Below, in pieces: positions 1-19,349 of a stretch of 20,754 nucleotides of DNA. A program made the translations under genes and the position numbers. The notes under the pieces are model-generated. The model did no database searches, was not told where the DNA came from, and was given only the letters and a program-made list of their open reading frames with translations. The DNA comes from Pilasporangium apinafurcum. Its lineage: Eukaryota > Oomycota > Peronosporomycetes > Pythiales > Pythiaceae. The stretch covers positions 35,813 through 56,566 of the forward strand of contig BCKE01000097.1 in the NCBI GenBank assembly GCA_001600495.1, written 5' to 3'. Within the stretch, counting starts at the first letter, position 1. Each line of letters starts with the position of its first letter.

Positions 1-99
1 TGGGCTTACCCACTCGGTTACTGGAATGCCTATGGTGCTGGACTGTATGGAGGTGGCTGTGGACTTGGCATTCCATTTGGCGGTCTCTTCTACTGCTAA
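1..99 (+). CDS. C-terminal end of a Gly/Tyr-rich protein (partial)
   Basis: The first bases read in frame 1 as 32 codons followed by TAA. The peptide is rich in glycine, tyrosine and tryptophan and ends in IPFGGLFYC. The 5' part lies outside the window. Low-complexity Gly/Tyr tails of this kind occur on secreted and wall-associated proteins, but I cannot assign a family from so little. The following 100 bases hold no convincing gene and are probably its 3' untranslated region. Confidence 0.6.
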   Translation, partial: WAYPLGYWNAYGAGLYGGGCGLGIPFGGLFYC

Positions 100-524
100 A
101 TTATCAGTACCGACTGTCGCTTGTATACTTGCACGCTTGGATTGGTCATCTCCAATACCATCGCTATGAATCAATCTCAAGAGCGCATGGATAGGATGCA
201 GCGTTGTCGTAAACTATCGCTCGTTTCTCATTACTAAACAATCAACATTTGAGCTTTTTCGTATCGTGCCTCCGTACTACTACCAAGGACATCGAGAATG
301 TCACCGTAGGATTTACGTCCTGACAGTAGGGTGACATTCTCGGTGCTCTTTGTAATAATCAGTTTTCTCTCCATTGTTACACCTATTAGTGTATACACGA
401 AATCAAGCACTTCAACAATCTCGATCAAAGTGACCACAAAACACATTCTCTCCATGCAACTCACAATAAGGTAAAACTGTCCGGATTAGTGAAGATAGCA
501 TGTAGAGAACAGATCTTGAAGATC
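100..524. other. Non-coding stretch between Gly-rich gene and Fanzor relic
   Basis: No gene is supported here. The minus strand has a 76-codon open frame (234-464) with a hydrophobic first third, but it has no recognisable domain and no promoter or splice context. The stretch holds one strong hairpin, listed separately. It may be the decayed 5' part of the mobile element that starts near 525. Confidence 0.5.
293..342. repeat. Perfect 13-bp inverted repeat (hairpin)
   Basis: CGAGAATGTCACC at 293-305 is repeated as its exact reverse complement GGTGACATTCTCG at 330-342. The 24-nt loop itself contains AGGA...TCCT. It could be a folded 3' UTR of the left-edge gene, or a palindrome near the left end of the Fanzor element. 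Sequence alone does not decide. Confidence 0.75.
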
Positions 525-1262
525 ATGACTACCGTCCAAGACCGCTTTGGGTGCGGACTCCTTGCACAAATGCGTAAAAAGCGTAGCATCCAAGTCATGG
601 TTCACGCTGACCAACAAGTCCTTCAAGACAAGAATGAAGACATGGAAGTGCAAGAAGTCTAAGAAGACTTCTCTTTTCGTGTTAACATCGGTCGCTAAAG
701 TCTGGTGAAGGTCAACTTTGATTCTTTCCGCGATATTTTGGTTTCTATAAAAAATGAAGGCATTAAGATCAAAGAGCAACTTCTGGCACTCGAGTATGCA
801 AATCGTTTACAGAGAAATCGAGAAGATTACTGCTATGTCTGTGTTCCAGTGTTGAAAGGGTTCCAGCTGACAGACTCTACTCGAACGTACACAATTGCTC
901 CCGGAGTTCATAGTTTTATTACTTTGTACAACCCTCATGGCATGGTATTAAGCGTGGACGATGCCAAGAACGCAATGTTTAACCGCTGTCTGTTGGTCGA
1001 TCTTCCATCCTTCAGGACTTCAGAGATGACGTCCAAACAACAAAAAATTTCAGACAAGGTGTCAAGAAAAACGTTCACGTAGTTTCACTACAAGTTCAAG
1101 ACGCTACTGAAGTACAAGATGGAAAGGACTGGAGGACGTATAATCGAGTGTGAGGAACACTATACAACAAAGACTTGTTCTCAGAGTCCAGGTGTCGGAG
1201 ATGGTTACTCTGCAGTTGTCCAGTCTTAACTAGCTTTTGCCAGTCAAGTCGGACCTGAATAG
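525..1262 (+). pseudogene. Decayed Fanzor/TnpB-like RNA-guided nuclease gene
   Basis: One plus-strand frame carries family landmarks across in-frame stops at 660, 696, 1080, 1227 and 1260. At about 807-850 it reads LQRNREDYCYVCVPV, the strand leading into the RuvC fold in TnpB/Fanzor proteins (LQR....YYLCIP pattern). At 888-936 it reads TIAPGVHSFITLYNPHG, matching the RuvC-I block (ALDPGVRTF..YDP.G), but the catalytic Asp is Ala. At 1086-1184 it reads HYKFKTLL...EEHYTTKTCSQ, the helix and start of the C-terminal zinc-ribbon block (E.YTSKTCS.CG). The second zinc-ribbon cysteine is missing and the rest is unrecognisable in this frame. Stops, the lost Asp and the broken ribbon make it non-functional. 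TnpB/Fanzor proteins are RNA-guided DNA nucleases carried by transposons. Eukaryotic Fanzor is likelier than a recent bacterial transfer, but this was not tested. Confidence 0.7.
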
Positions 1263-1322
1263 CAAAACAGGAGCTCCTCCCTGAGCTACCCGTACTTCTG
1301 TATCTCATATAATCTCTTGAGG
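1184..1322 (+). repeat. 3' segment of the Fanzor relic, repeated at the right edge (copy 1)
   Basis: Bases 1184-1229 recur at 20073-20115 on the opposite strand, with three differences seen in the aligned 43-44 bases. Bases 1227-1286 recur at 19371-19430, with seven differences in 60; weaker similarity runs on to a shared CTCTTGAGG. Here the two parts are contiguous; at the right edge they are separated by an insertion. The repeat covers the relic's last codons and its downstream flank, so it may mark the element's right end. It stops just short of the WBP2-like gene's stop codon at 1338. Confidence 0.8.
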
Positions 1323-1337
1323 TGATGAGATATAATT

Positions 1338-2153
1338 CTATGTGGGCTGTGCCTTATCAATGAGAAAAATGGTCATCGGATCTTCCGAAGCATAAAACGC
1401 CAGTCGGTTGTTGCTATCGATGAGACCGGGTGGTTTGGCAGGTACCATCAGCACCGATGGGGTGCGCAAGTCGCGAAACTGCTGGTGCAATGGTCGCGAG
1501 CTTTCCAAAAGTGGTGTAATATGGCTACGAAACTCTTCAAAGCCAAAGCTCTGCAGAAACATTTATCAGCGTGACAATTAACAATCTGCAGGTGAAATCA
1601 CTTGCGTGCAAGAATAGCATACCAGAAATTCCAACGTAAACGTCCCAATTCCAACTAAACCTCCGCCTGGAACACGATTGATATGCCCTTTCCAGGTTTT
1701 TGCGCCTATAGCGACAGGAAAACAGAAGTACAAGTTGTATTTGCGTAAGCAAACGTAAAATATGATCTTTTGCGAACCAAATTGGACATACCAAAGAAGC
1801 TGACGTGGAAGTTCCAATCACGGATGCAATAAAACGGCAATGAAAAGGACTTGTATGCAGTGTTTGCTGTATCGGACACGAATACAATACGGTACTGCGA
1901 TATGTAACATTGTCCTTCTTGCCCATAAAAACAGCCGCCCTGTCCTGGGTATCCACTGTATAATGGCAACATCACCGCGCTTTTGAAGTTAGAACCACAA
2001 TCAATTAATCTCACTGAGCAGAACACAGCAAGCAGCGACGCACTTGCCACTTTCGACAGTGAGCTGCACGTGGCGGATGAGAAAGAAAAAATTCTCGTAG
2101 GGTGACACGAGATACGGCACCACACCCTCATGCAGCTGCACATTGATGCTCAT
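1338..2153 (-). CDS. WBP2: WBP2-like GRAM-domain protein
   Basis: Four exons (2153-2044, 1979-1792, 1705-1623, 1550-1338) join in phase to 197 residues. Introns are 64, 86 and 72 nt with GT-AG ends. The start reads MSINVQLHEGVVPYL. The core follows the WBP2 GRAM pattern: QCYISQYRIVFVSDT (known family TVYLTPYRVIFLS), SFSLPFYCIRDW (SFMMPFYLMKD), then across intron 2 FFGAKTWKGHINRVPGGG (VFGANYIKGTVKAEAGGG), then GTFTLEF. Splicing restores FGAKTWKG exactly, which supports the intron call. GRAM domains bind phosphoinositides; WBP2 proteins act as cytosolic/nuclear adaptors. The 71-residue tail shows no PPxY motif, the site animal WBP2 uses to bind WW domains. It shares a 193-bp divergent promoter region with the kelch gene. 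Confidence 0.85.
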
Positions 2154-2346
2154 ATCCCAACAGTCTTGAGAAGGAGCTTTTTATTCTCTTCTTTGTTGCA
2201 TCGGATCTGATTCTTTAACCTGATTCTGTGTCTTAATCTGATTCCTATAACCTCTCAAAAGCGATCAATTGATGATTGCCCATTTTTTTTGGCGGGAAGA
2301 CACTTTTGCCATTTTCACTTGACAAATAACCGCGCAAGAAGCGACG
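2154..2346. promoter_or_regulatory. Divergent promoter with E2F-type site (2288-2298)
   Basis: This is the 193-bp gap between the starts of the WBP2-like (-) and kelch (+) genes. TTTGGCGGGAA at 2288-2298 fits the E2F/DP consensus TTTSSCGC with flanking GGGAA, 49 bp upstream of the kelch ATG. The overlapping GCCCATTTTTTTT and the nearby GCCATTTTCACTT (2307-2319) resemble the CATTTT core of oomycete initiators. Both assignments rest on sequence match only. Confidence 0.4.
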
Positions 2347-4449
2347 ATGCCGCTGCTGTCGTATGAAGGTGCGTCTTCTCTGCTTTTGCTTCTTCCTGCT
2401 CTATGTTCGCTCTCTTACTCTGTCCGTCGTTTGCTGGGTGTTGCAGGTGTGGAAGTGGACATTCCCACAAGTCTCAACGGCATCCAGTTTTCCTTCACCA
2501 ATGGCTCCCTCACAATCCGATGCTCCAATTTCACCGGCAACGTTGTATTGTCCAAGCGTATGTAATTTATGTAATTCACATACTCCGACCATTAATTACA
2601 TAAGAAAGAGATTGACGTATGCACTGCATTTCTTCTGTATAGCTGCTGGACGTGCAAACGACGTTTTTGCCAACTTCACCACCAAGAGCACTACCAACAG
2701 TACAAGCAACACGTTAAAAAAGCGAACGATTGATCTCAGCGAAGAAGACGACGAAGACACCGGCAGCTCCGAGCAGCGAGAAGTGGAACTTCAGAAGCGT
2801 ATTCGCCCCAACTTCCTCAACGATGTAGAGCAATCGATGCTTTTGGCACAACTGGACGTGTCTCAGCAGTCGCTCAATACAGACAAGTGTGGTAAAGCAG
2901 CAGGAGATGTAGATTCGATTGTGTTGGCGTCTTCGGTTTCAGTGCCTGATGAGGAAAGTAATATTCACATTACAACGAAGATTCCAGCCAAACCACCTGC
3001 GAAAACGCCAGCGAAGAAAGCCAAGAAGGGCGGTAGCGTCACGCCCAATCTCTTCTTTTCCCCAGAGCCAAAAGACCCTACGCAGAAACCTTCACCAAAA
3101 TCCCATGGAAAACGAGGACGTCCAAAGAAAACACCAGTAACGTCTGTGAAACCCATATCACCAACTAAAACCCTGCGAACAGGTATGTGCTTGATGAAGG
3201 TCATATAAGTGGTTTATGGCCTTATTATGATTTTTTGTCTTGTGTATGCTGCATAGTTAGTGCTCAATGGACTGAAGTCAAAGCAAAGGGGACTATTCCT
3301 GCAGAGCGGTGGGGTCATTCTGCAACGAAGATCTCGGATGATCGTGTCGTAATGTATGGAGGAGCAAATGATGATGAGGTCACGATCGGAGATCTCCACG
3401 TATTTGATTTGAAGAAACTTGAGTGGTCGCAGCCTCTAAACTGCGAAAGTATCCCTCGCACATGGCATGATGCCGTGTATTTAGAAACGAAGCACTTGCT
3501 ACTAGTGTTTGGTGGTGAGCGAATCACCAGTCCAGACCAAATGGAAGTGTTGTCAGATATTATGGTGCTGGACACCGAGTGCTTCCTTTGGTATCCTCCT
3601 GCCATCAGTGGCGTGGCTCCCGTTGCAAGGTTTGCTTGCATAGTTACTTTTGTTTTTATGATGGCGTTTTGCAGAATCATTAATGAGGCTTTATTTTGTA
3701 GAAGTGGCCATACTTGTACGGTGGTGGGGAATGAGATCGTTGTATTCGGCGGAAGTCGCGGTCGCAATCGTCAGAGCTCTGTTCATGTTTTAGATAGCGG
3801 TAAGAGATGAATACGACCTGAGGATGTTGTGCTGCTACTGATGATGAGACTAATTTTCTACTACTATATCTTAGATAAGTGGCATTGGAAGACATTAAAG
3901 ATCGAAGGCAAGCCACCCAGCGCGCGCACATACCACAGCGCAGTCACAGTGGGCAACAACATTGTGTATTTTGGCGGAAATGACTCCAAGCAGAGCTTCA
4001 ATTCCGTGCATGTGCTGCAAAAGAGCACAGACAGTGAAGACTCGTGGACGTGGTTTCACCCATGCGTGATTGGCCAACCGCCATGTCCTCGAACAGGTCA
4101 CTCGGCAACGCTCATTGGTGGCAGTTCTAAGAAGATTCTCATCTACGGTGGATGGGATCCACAGCAGGAAGAAGATATGGCGACAAGTGTTTTTGATGAT
4201 GCCTTCTTTTTGAATACGGAAAAATGGGAATGGGAACGAGTGATTCTGGAAAAGGGCGCAGTCAATGATGATGATGAAATACAGAGATTACCAGGACGAG
4301 TGGGCCATCGTGCTGTTTTGCATGAAGGAAACAACCAAATATGCCTCTTTGGTGGACAGAATGGAGCAGAGCAGCGGCTCAACGTGATCCACGCCATTAC
4401 GTTAAACAAACAGCAGCCAGAGGAAGAAGCATTAACAGTGGATGAATAA
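2347..4449 (+). CDS. Nuclear kelch-repeat protein with basic AT-hook region
   Basis: Six exons (2347-2368, 2447-2557, 2643-3182, 3257-3629, 3702-3799, 3875-4449) join in phase to 572 residues; introns are 72-85 nt. Residues 1-44 form a short unassigned N-terminus. Residues 45-224 are disordered: an acidic run (DLSEEDDEDTG), a histone H1-like Lys/Pro/Ala stretch (about 158-174), an AT-hook core KRGRPKK (201-207) and several SP/TP sites including SPTK. Residues 225-572 form kelch repeats, seen as recurring H(S/T)A..., V(V/Y)(M/F)(Y/F)GG and later W motifs (VVMYGGAN, LLLVFGGE, IVVFGGSR, IVYFGGND, ILIYGGWD, ICLFGGQN). These suggest a six-bladed propeller. The role is probably chromatin-linked protein binding; partner unknown. 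Intron 1 is a multiple of three and stop-free, so its removal is inferred from splice signals. Confidence 0.85.
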
Positions 4450-16908: not shown

Positions 16909-19158
16909 CTATTTGTTCTTGGAAGCCATGGCCTTAGCGTGCTCAGCAACCAGCTTCTCCTGCACGTCACGGGTCACGAGGTCGTGGGTCTTGTACTCCA
17001 TCGTAAATTCACCCTTGCCCTGAGTGGACGAGCGGAGATCCGTCGAGAAACCGAACATGTTTTGAAGGGGCACGTCGCATCGTACGACCGTGGAAAGCTC
17101 ATCGGCATCGCTGCTGTTGATCATACCACGTCGACGGTTTACTTCCGCGATGGCAGTACCCTGGAACTCGTTCGGAACTTCCACTTCCACTGACATGACT
17201 GGCTCCAAAATGCATGGATTCGCCTTCATGAAAGCTTGGCGGATGGCCTGGATCATGGCAGTCTTGAACGCCAGCTCACTAGAATCGACAGAGTGAGCCT
17301 GTCCGTCGTTGATTACTACACGCATCCGCTGAATAGGATGCCCCACGAGCCACCCCTTTTGTACCGCTTCCTTCGTACCTTTTTCACACGCCGCAATGTA
17401 CTCGGGAGGAATAGCATTACCGATAATATCGTTGACGAATTCCACACCGGCGTTATCATCTTCCAATGGTTCAATGTACCCAACCACACGCGCGTACTGA
17501 CCTGAACCACCACTTTGCTTACGATGCAGATAGTTGAATTCCGAACGTTGACGGATGGTTTCGCGGTAGTTGACCTGTGGAGCTCCCGTCGTGACATCCA
17601 CGTTGTATTCCCGGCGCATGCGTTCTACATAGATCTGCAAATGCAGTTCACCCATACCACTGATGATCGTTTCTTTGCTATCATCATCCACTCGAACACG
17701 GAACGTCGGGTCTTCCTTCTGGAAGCGGTTGAGTGCCTTCGAGAAATTAGCGATTTGCTGCTTATTCTTAGGTGTCACGGCAAGTGACATCACTGGCTCC
17801 GGCACGTGTAGACTCGTCATCGTAAATTTGGACGTATTCGAGTCGCTGAACGTGTCCATACTGGCACATTCCACACCAAACATGGCCACGACCTCACCTG
17901 CACCAACTTCGTCGACGTCCTCCATTTCGTTCGAATGCATCTTCACTAAGCGAGGCACCTTGATGCGCTTCATATCACTCATGTTGTAGATGAAACCACC
18001 GCGTTTGAGAGTACCGGAGTAGATACGCATGTACGTAAGCTGTCCGAACTTTCCTTCTTCCAATTTAAAAGCAAGCGCCAACAACGGGGCCGTCGGCGAG
18101 CAAGGCACTAGCACTTTTTCTTCGGCATTGCCTTGATCCAACGCAAAGTTAGACACTTCGGATGGACTGGGCAAGTACGACACCACAGCATCCAGCATGG
18201 GCTGCACACCACGGTTCTTAAAGGCTGAACCCATTAGCACAGGCACAAACTTGTGCGCGACGGTTGCACGACGGATCGCTTCACGCAATTGGTCTTCTGT
18301 CGGCTCCTCTTCCATCAGGAACAGCTCGCCGATTTCATCATCAACGTCTGCCAACGCTTCGATTAGCTCCAGACGCTTTTCTTCAGCAAGAGCGCGAGTT
18401 TCCGCAGGAATATCATCCGACTCATCAATGATTTCACCATTATCGCCCTTGTTTCGCAACGCCTTCATGGTAATCAAGTCCACGACACCTTCGAGATCAT
18501 TTTCCGCACCAATAGGCACTTGCAATGCCGTGGCATTCAATTTAAGTTGGCTACGCAAATCGCGGATGACTTTCCATGGGTTGGCACCCATGCGATCCAG
18601 TTTGTTGATAAAGGCGATGCGAGGCACACCATAGCGCTTCATCTGTTTGTCGACCGTCAACGACTGACTTTGGACGCCGGAGACACCGCACAGCACGAGT
18701 ACACCACCGTCAAGCACACGCAATGCACGTTCGACTTCGATCGTGAAGTCGACGTGACCGGGCGTGTCGATGATATTGATGTTGGAGTCCTTCCACGAGC
18801 AGTACGTGGCAGCGGACTGAATGGTGATGCCCTTTTCGCGCTCCAATTCCATGGAATCCATCTTTGCACCGACGCCATCTTTCCCACGCACATCGTGAAT
18901 GGCGTTGATGCGACCCGTATAGAAGAGAATACGTTCTGTGAGTGTTGTTTTGCCGGAATCAATGTGCGCTGAGATCCCGATGTTGCGCAGATTGGCCATG
19001 TAGCCTTCCGGGACGGTGCATCCCTCCGCAAATGGACGAGCAACACTTTCACTGTCAGCCGCTGCTGCAGCAGCCGTACTGAGTGCACGCGATACCAGCG
19101 CAGTAGGGCGCTGATAAAGCGCAGCAGAGGTAGACAAACGCCGTGTGAATCGGAGCAT
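16909..19158 (-). CDS. GFM1: Mitochondrial translation elongation factor G1
   Basis: One uninterrupted frame gives 749 residues from the ATG at 19158 ([18 protein letters not shown]..., a clear mitochondrial presequence); an in-frame ATG at 19203 would add 15 residues. GTPase motifs are complete: [20 protein letters not shown] (G1), [10 protein letters not shown] (G2), [23 protein letters not shown] (G3) and NKLDRMG (G4). Domain II ([23 protein letters not shown]), III ([14 protein letters not shown]), IV and V follow to the stop at 16909. The factor drives tRNA-mRNA translocation on mitochondrial ribosomes. The mtEFG1 sequence [30 protein letters not shown] marks it as EF-G1, not the recycling factor EF-G2. 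It is the only large gene here without an intron. Confidence 0.96.
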
Positions 19159-19349
19159 GTTGCTGTTGTGCGTATCTCTCCAACCAAAAAGTGACTGGAT
19201 CAAGAGGAAACAACGGAAAACCTTTGTTTTTTAAAAATTTTTGGAAACGTTTTAGAAGGGTAATTATATTATAAAATTTTATTTTTGAATCAGGTAGTCT
19301 GATTATCAAGTGAAAATCTGAGTACGAAAAAGAAACAATTTCAACTTGT

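Follow-up and report, generated by a model that had tools for sequence, protein, structure and literature searches.

The elements closest to the one described here are already known in several forms. The sections of the literature drawn on here (PMC3627910; PMC10711439; PMC10432273) cover Fanzor2 accompanied by an IS607-type TnpA, Fanzor2 in Phytophthora, ghost loci, and Fanzor2 carried by cut-and-paste transposons. The 2013 list of Bao and Jurka, in the part used, gives one Fanzor2 family for each of three Phytophthora species (PMC3627910), and the name Fanzor2* denotes Fanzor2 captured by eukaryotic cut-and-paste transposons, with cases reported from an alga and from molluscs (PMC10711439). 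In intact Fanzor systems, according to the same sections, the guide RNA derives from the 3′ end (PMC10432273; PMC10711439). The families treated below are not described in the titles and abstract openings of a partial collection of papers on Fanzor or IS607 in oomycetes and Phytophthora.

The window analyzed here is a 20,754-nucleotide stretch of the Pilasporangium apinafurcum genome (G000:C97:35813-56566; 36,473,033 bases in 136 contigs). Near its start lies a stretch in which the features first noticed are confirmed and whose reading as a Fanzor-type relic is supported: it is non-coding and decayed, the remains of a mobile element that once carried an RNA-guided nuclease of Fanzor type, and it belongs with the Fanzor2/IS607 branch. 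The preferred reading, with a probability of about 0.9, is that the relic comes from an element combining an IS607-type TnpA with Fanzor2, that deleted derivatives of this element spread, and that the present copy makes no nuclease. Many related copies exist in this genome, so that the relic is of a known kind, and the present copy is dead.

Three motifs of the forward strand share one reading frame starting at 402: LQRNREDYCYVCVP (807-848), corresponding to the pre-RuvC strand, APGVHSFITLYNPHG (897-941), corresponding to RuvC-I, and EEHYTTKTCSQ (1152-1184), corresponding to the entry of the zinc ribbon. Since the stops of this frame fall at 660, 696, 1080, 1227, and 1260, the first two motifs lie in the same open stretch and a stop stands ahead of the third, and the order claimed by the original prediction in a single stop-broken frame is borne out. 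A search with TnpB/Fanzor profiles, which that prediction had proposed as its check with the lack of any match counting against it, returned Pfam PF07282 for the zinc-ribbon-entry fragment at 35.7 bits (cut-off 26.3, E = 9.4e-9); the relic thus exceeds the curated cut-off of this TNB zinc-ribbon profile by the first half of the profile only (positions 1-33 of 60), and the RuvC-I-bearing fragment matched no convincing family in Pfam. The claimed Fanzor-type relic is likewise upheld by the tblastn alignment of window 1-2400 with P0003, a relative with a 504-aa open frame elsewhere in the same genome (159 bits, E = 6e-46), against which only 3 of 200 dinucleotide-preserving shuffles of window 1-2400 matched at E ≤ 10, the best at 24.6 bits. 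The best solved relative is the TnpB-like protein L79, a mimivirus protein, which also ranks first by sequence for a 176-aa read-through of the relic, although there at only E = 0.04. At 897-899 the RuvC-I Asp is replaced by Ala, as had been noticed at the outset, and the related frames P0003, P0005, and P0007 have DPG. This Ala is one lesion among several larger ones. The catalytic D-E-D set and the four-Cys zinc ribbon are absent, and with the RuvC-III Asp and most of the Cys lost through the third of the deletions described below, in addition to the RuvC-I Ala, the stretch is a relic and not an enzyme.

By DNA similarity to relatives the relic runs from about 357, or from 386, to about 1324 on the forward strand, so the limits of 525-1262 first assigned to it were too narrow. 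The outermost start is a putative and uncertain 5′ edge (357..409), given by 53 bp of the single relative L016 that are 90.6% alike before the match jumps to 915. Positions 386..689 are a decayed remnant of an IS607-type serine recombinase (TnpA), covering the late part of its catalytic domain together with the sequence that leads to TnpB. At the junction of deletion 1 (689..707) about 480 bp, comprising the HTH and most of the REC, are missing relative to L043, the copy against whose coordinates all three deletion lengths were derived. A Fanzor fragment with the pre-RuvC stretch, the pre-RuvC strand, and RuvC-I follows at 707..1000, as delimited by tblastn with P0003 and by aligned relatives. 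Deletion 2 (junction 1001..1005, where the two sides overlap by 5 bp) removed 156 bp, or 52 codons, of the RuvC-II region and appears as a 52-residue gap against P0003. The next Fanzor fragment (1006..1184) holds the post-RuvC-II part, the alternative-Glu position, and the first zinc-ribbon Cys, with an in-frame TAG at 1080, and deletion 3 (junction 1185..1187, about 137 bp) took the remaining zinc ribbon and the RuvC-III Asp. The 3′ end region, from which intact Fanzor elements produce their guide RNA (omega/reRNA), occupies 1188..1324, with a hairpin at about 1218-1254 and the family end at 1324; among the 74 non-self DNA matches listed, 35 have their end within window 1315-1332.

Compared with nine related copies, the window shows 0.198, 0.209, and 0.229 differences per site in first, second, and third codon positions, near-equal values that therefore show no sign of coding selection and resemble non-coding DNA. 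There is little codon bias in family A either, the term used here for copies with P0003-like frames and TTAA ends: in the P0003 frame there are 54, 40, and 52 differences per codon position from L002 (391-393 sites each) and 53, 45, and 65 from L006 (384 sites). The corresponding figures for L004 (168, 174, and 171) are uninformative because L004 lacks most of that stretch.

Although the Fanzor label of the original prediction stood, the TnpA-like remnant had been missed, and the status of the locus as one of many copies of a deleted derivative has been added here. Before about 690 the relic matches recombinase proteins and not TnpB. In tblastn, P0123 of Phytophthora infestans (resolvase and HTH_OrfB) matches 459-617 (36%, E = 5e-8) and P0042 of P. 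cactorum matches 495-677 (39%, E = 9e-10); both proteins contain resolvase stretches, and P0123 passes the NCBIfam IS607 transposase model NF033518 (115.8 bits, cut-off 110). As DNA, the recombinase part matches L043 at 76.5% over 477-689 and L011 at 75.8% over 386-689, and its 86-aa piece at 402-659 alone gave no match in NCBIfam or Pfam. An IS607 TnpA-like stretch, located by tblastn with P0123, adjoins the Fanzor part in L043, in L002, and in the relic. With 15 candidates scored, three genomic sites match the resolvase profile PF00239 at E ≤ 0.001, in frames of 114-132 aa, two of which contain stops. The sites C62:21828 and C55:41644 correspond to the TnpA stretches found in L043 and in L002, and C1:1167832 is less than 1 kb away from a Fanzor match at C1:1168691. 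The likeness of its first part to a serine recombinase of IS607 type makes a TnpA + Fanzor2 element the probable source of the relic.

Relatives of the nuclease are numerous, with at least 150 TNB places in the genome (best 150 of 852 candidates) and at least 172 matches to the relic protein (best 150 of 441 candidates). With up to 3 mismatches allowed, the 3′-end pattern shared by the relic family has 296 occurrences in the genome (control 4); for the 3′ end of family A there are 67 (control 0). The suggestion that this lineage carried Fanzor elements and may have intact copies elsewhere agrees with the presence of longer open frames of Fanzor2 type that bear the Fanzor active-site signature. 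P0003 (147.6 bits), P0002 (128.1), and P0005 (109.6) all pass the NCBIfam model NF040570, guided_TnpB (cut-off 100). P0003, which has DPG at RuvC-I and a Glu six residues ahead of the zinc finger, fits the DPG...Ealt...CxxC..CxxC..D expression given in the section used of Yoon et al. (PMC10711439), as do 104 of the database matches listed (best 120 of 514); P0001, P0004, and P0005 fit only a widened form, and P0002 fits neither. None of the 18 matches of P0003 at E ≤ 0.001 is named as a Spizellomyces Fanzor.

The F1 family (P0001/P0005) is about 2.66 kb long, with 3′-nearer pieces 96-99% alike and 5′ pieces 84-97% alike, and between its copies L039 and L033 there are 6, 5, and 10 differences at the three codon positions (640 sites each). 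No TIR or TSD was seen by eye at 13 five-prime and 15 three-prime ends of this family. Its 3′ end looks like the one in the relic family, a likeness judged only by eye. An open frame of 2332 aa at a TNB match looked like a fusion and was rejected as an assembly-gap artefact (6257 of 9901 bases are N); one of 8140 aa was set aside likewise by analogy, the part seen (L031) having 223 N in 9901 bases. Two further large TnpB/Fanzor-like frames occur together in L037 (G000:C135), namely the 691-aa P0002 and a 703-aa frame at 270-2378 whose TNB match falls short of the cut-off. DPG is present in P0002, but its alternative-Glu position holds Ala, and by eye the Glu sits at the canonical position. The contig is 20 kb long, with a GC content of 0.388 in the part examined, and the two frames could be of a different kind or belong to a foreign contig.

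Deletions 2 and 3 are shared with other copies and deletion 1 is private as far as seen, because among the 74 non-self DNA matches listed (from the best 40 of 559 candidates; one locus may yield several, and the counts are of matches and not of independent events) an unbroken span crosses the third junction in 37, the second in 14, and the first in none, with 9 matches ending and 15 starting at the first. The sequences show that the zinc ribbon/RuvC-III part is missing at the same junction in many copies (family B) and that a subset has lost RuvC-II as well, again at a common junction; the latter is found in ten loci, L010-L019, or six groups after near-identical copies are merged. As two of the three junctions recur in other copies, a defective derivative appears to have spread. 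Part of this spread may be ordinary duplication, since L011/L013, L012/L015/L018, and L016/L017 are 96-99.9% alike over matched pieces; most other locus pairs from six query loci align over the element only, at about 70-80%. Decay in place of a single Fanzor gene, through point mutations and private deletions, would account for the stops and for the one private deletion, but two junctions recurring in 14 and 37 of the 74 matches, the second of them in six locus groups, fit such a history only if all sharing copies are segmental duplicates, as some of the near-identical sets may be, and it is considered very unlikely. The common borders of the missing stretches might also be taken to mean that these are introns and that the relic copies are retroposed spliced transcripts. 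In open relatives, however, the missing stretches encode conserved RuvC-II and zinc-ribbon residues, and the borders of deletion 3, the one inspected by eye, are not clean GT-AG, which makes this explanation extremely improbable.

The relic family could instead consist of ghost guide-RNA loci in which the protein part is dead and intact Fanzors act in trans with a kept 3′-end RNA. Such loci, with guide RNAs that work, are described from Spizellomyces punctatus in the section used of that report (PMC10432273), and the relic keeps its 3′ end and hairpin, with the 296 related ends counted above; the 37-nt hairpin piece (1219-1255) folds at z = -2.70, but the full 135-nt end (1190-1324) folds no better than shuffles (z = -0.30), and the ends of four other copies give z from -1.29 to -1.98. 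Pairing in the hairpin is 81.6% and drops to 20.7-43.9% when the partners are slid by 1-3 columns, which is partly expected because the hairpin was drawn from these same sequences. In an alignment of 18 ends, 17 of them distinct, covariation stays within the shuffle range (on the four measures, 205, 220, 115, and 194 of 500 shuffles do at least as well), as does pairing (124 of 500 reach the observed value), and RNAalifold returns a weak consensus of -1.85 kcal/mol with 9 pairs, 2 of which have a kept double change. Nor is the 3′ region better conserved than the dead coding part, with mean pairwise identities of 0.761 and 0.775 vs 0.776 and 0.798 in ten copies (with the near-duplicate pairs L012/L015 and L016/L017, and without L013, L018, L036, and L041); likewise, in the five ghosts described below the last 100 nt have an identity of 0.902 vs 0.915 for the rest. 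Neither the window, at gathering thresholds, nor any of four loci, at E ≤ 1, has an Rfam match. A kept guide RNA thus finds no support in conservation, covariation, or fold energy, and these together with Rfam supply no evidence of a working guide RNA in the relic, for which no guide-RNA function is therefore claimed; the ghost-locus explanation is regarded as unlikely.

Under the preferred derivation from a TnpA + Fanzor2 element, the ancestor would have combined a serine recombinase (TnpA) for movement with a Fanzor2 nuclease beside a 3′-end guide RNA. From how widely each junction is shared, it would have lost the zinc ribbon/RuvC-III part, then RuvC-II, and then, privately, the HTH/REC part. 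The defective versions may have multiplied through mobilization in trans by the proteins of intact relatives, a route suggested by the fact that they encode no protein themselves; the present copy has no nuclease and no detectable function. The intact relatives probably work like the Fanzors known from the literature, in which case the 3′-end RNA would hold flanking sequence as guide, the nuclease would cut the empty site that matches this guide, next to a short motif, and the element would be copied back during repair.

Family A starts with TTAACCTTTATTCCCC, and 10 or 11 of its last 12 bases mirror the first 12, TTAACCTTTATT. The start TTAACC is found in L043, L004, L007, and L006 and the end GGTTAA in L043, L002, L006, and L004, with GGTTAT in L017 and GGATTAA at the matching place in L007; TTAA is absent from two other 5′ regions, L019 and L007b. 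These TTAA-containing, mirrored ends run against the IS607 rule (no TIR, no TSD, GG target); the ends of the relic itself are uncertain, and no empty site was seen for family A or for the relic. The A 5′ end pattern occurs 927 times in the genome at up to 2 mismatches (control 77). Among the 67 sites of the A 3′ end, at least 11 lie 487-512 bp from a 5′ end in the same orientation (100 of the 927 5′ sites), which defines short ghosts. Five of about 510 bp (L049-L053) all start with TTAACC, four ending in TTAA and one in TTAT, and retain the Fanzor zinc-ribbon end along with the 3′ hairpin, complete or nearly so.

The A 5′ end also stands on both sides of L054 (G000:C34:5650-8141), a 2.45-kb element flanked by TTAA whose broken frames encode a Fanzor1-type protein and which belongs to another family than that of P0003. 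Its 293-aa frame passes PF07282 (28.8 vs 26.3) and has the Spizellomyces Fanzor 8gkh as best solved relative (E = 7e-5). The L054 protein has at least 136 genome matches, itself included (best 134 of 547 candidates), and among 100 listed exact sites of the shared end, 16 are no more than 400 bp away from such a match, with about 0.6 expected from density. No DNA similarity between L054 and L043 was found at E ≤ 0.001, and the stretch common to family A and L054 is about 20 bp long, at one end only (by eye). A tentative interpretation, at somewhat below even odds, is that an IS607 Fanzor2 unit, from which the relatives of the relic stem, was captured by the very TTAA-flanked transposon type that bears Fanzor1, and that one outside transposase moves both. 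If true, this would be an intermediate, still living, in the transition proposed to lead from IS607-borne Fanzor2 to the Fanzor1 found in cut-and-paste transposons. The piggyBac profile PF13843 has three genome places at E ≤ 0.001. At G000:C5:658288-659460 there is a piggyBac-type transposase (145.6 bits, no stops) in a 546-aa open frame, a possible mover of the TTAA elements.

Several other observations concern the surroundings of the relic. An imperfect inverted repeat with 31-nt arms (81%) lies directly ahead of it at window 278-357, and window 6-358 also adjoins the copy in L017, at 84%. Window 1-99 looks by eye like the end of a glycine-rich protein, and to the left of the window (L029) 8813 of 9901 bases are N. 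Two inverted relic-type 3′ arms, in a fold-back-like arrangement, occur in L012, in L015, and at G000:C4:431623-433347. A mitochondrial EF-G gene at 16909-19203 is closest to oomycete proteins, in keeping with a Pythium-like host: it is 90% alike to that of Pythium brassicae, 88% to P. insidiosum, 86% to P. oligandrum, 85% to Phytophthora sojae, and 77% to Albugo laibachii. The top-scoring record for this gene is labelled Albugo candida (84% over 57% in the best local piece), a label that may be wrong because A. laibachii is more distant than Pythium.

The relic alone documents only that an oomycete lineage carried Fanzor elements, and it is ordinary in kind. The small 36.5-Mb genome, with many Fanzor1- and Fanzor2-derived copies, attached TnpA remnants, and ghosts, is a rich setting for Fanzor evolution, suited to testing the passage of Fanzors between transposon types and the use of Fanzors in trans by their derivatives. 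Set against the Fanzor2/IS607 elements in the published sections compared (PMC3627910; PMC10711439), the likeness lies in the serine recombinase joined to Fanzor, the HTH_OrfB_IS605, the DPG, and the alternative Glu, and the difference in that the relic is deleted and decayed; family A has TTAA at most ends seen, whereas the published elements are given there as without TIRs or TSDs. The Spu-1 ghosts of S. punctatus, in the part of their description used (PMC10432273), are likewise short end-keeping Fanzor derivatives, about 550 nt long there and about 510 bp here, but here the 3′ RNA region is without extra conservation in the copies compared. Fanzor2* resembles family A in that the latter pairs Fanzor2 with short inverted TTAA-containing ends (the string TTAA has no occurrence in the main text of PMC10711439), and family A differs from it in still having a TnpA remnant.
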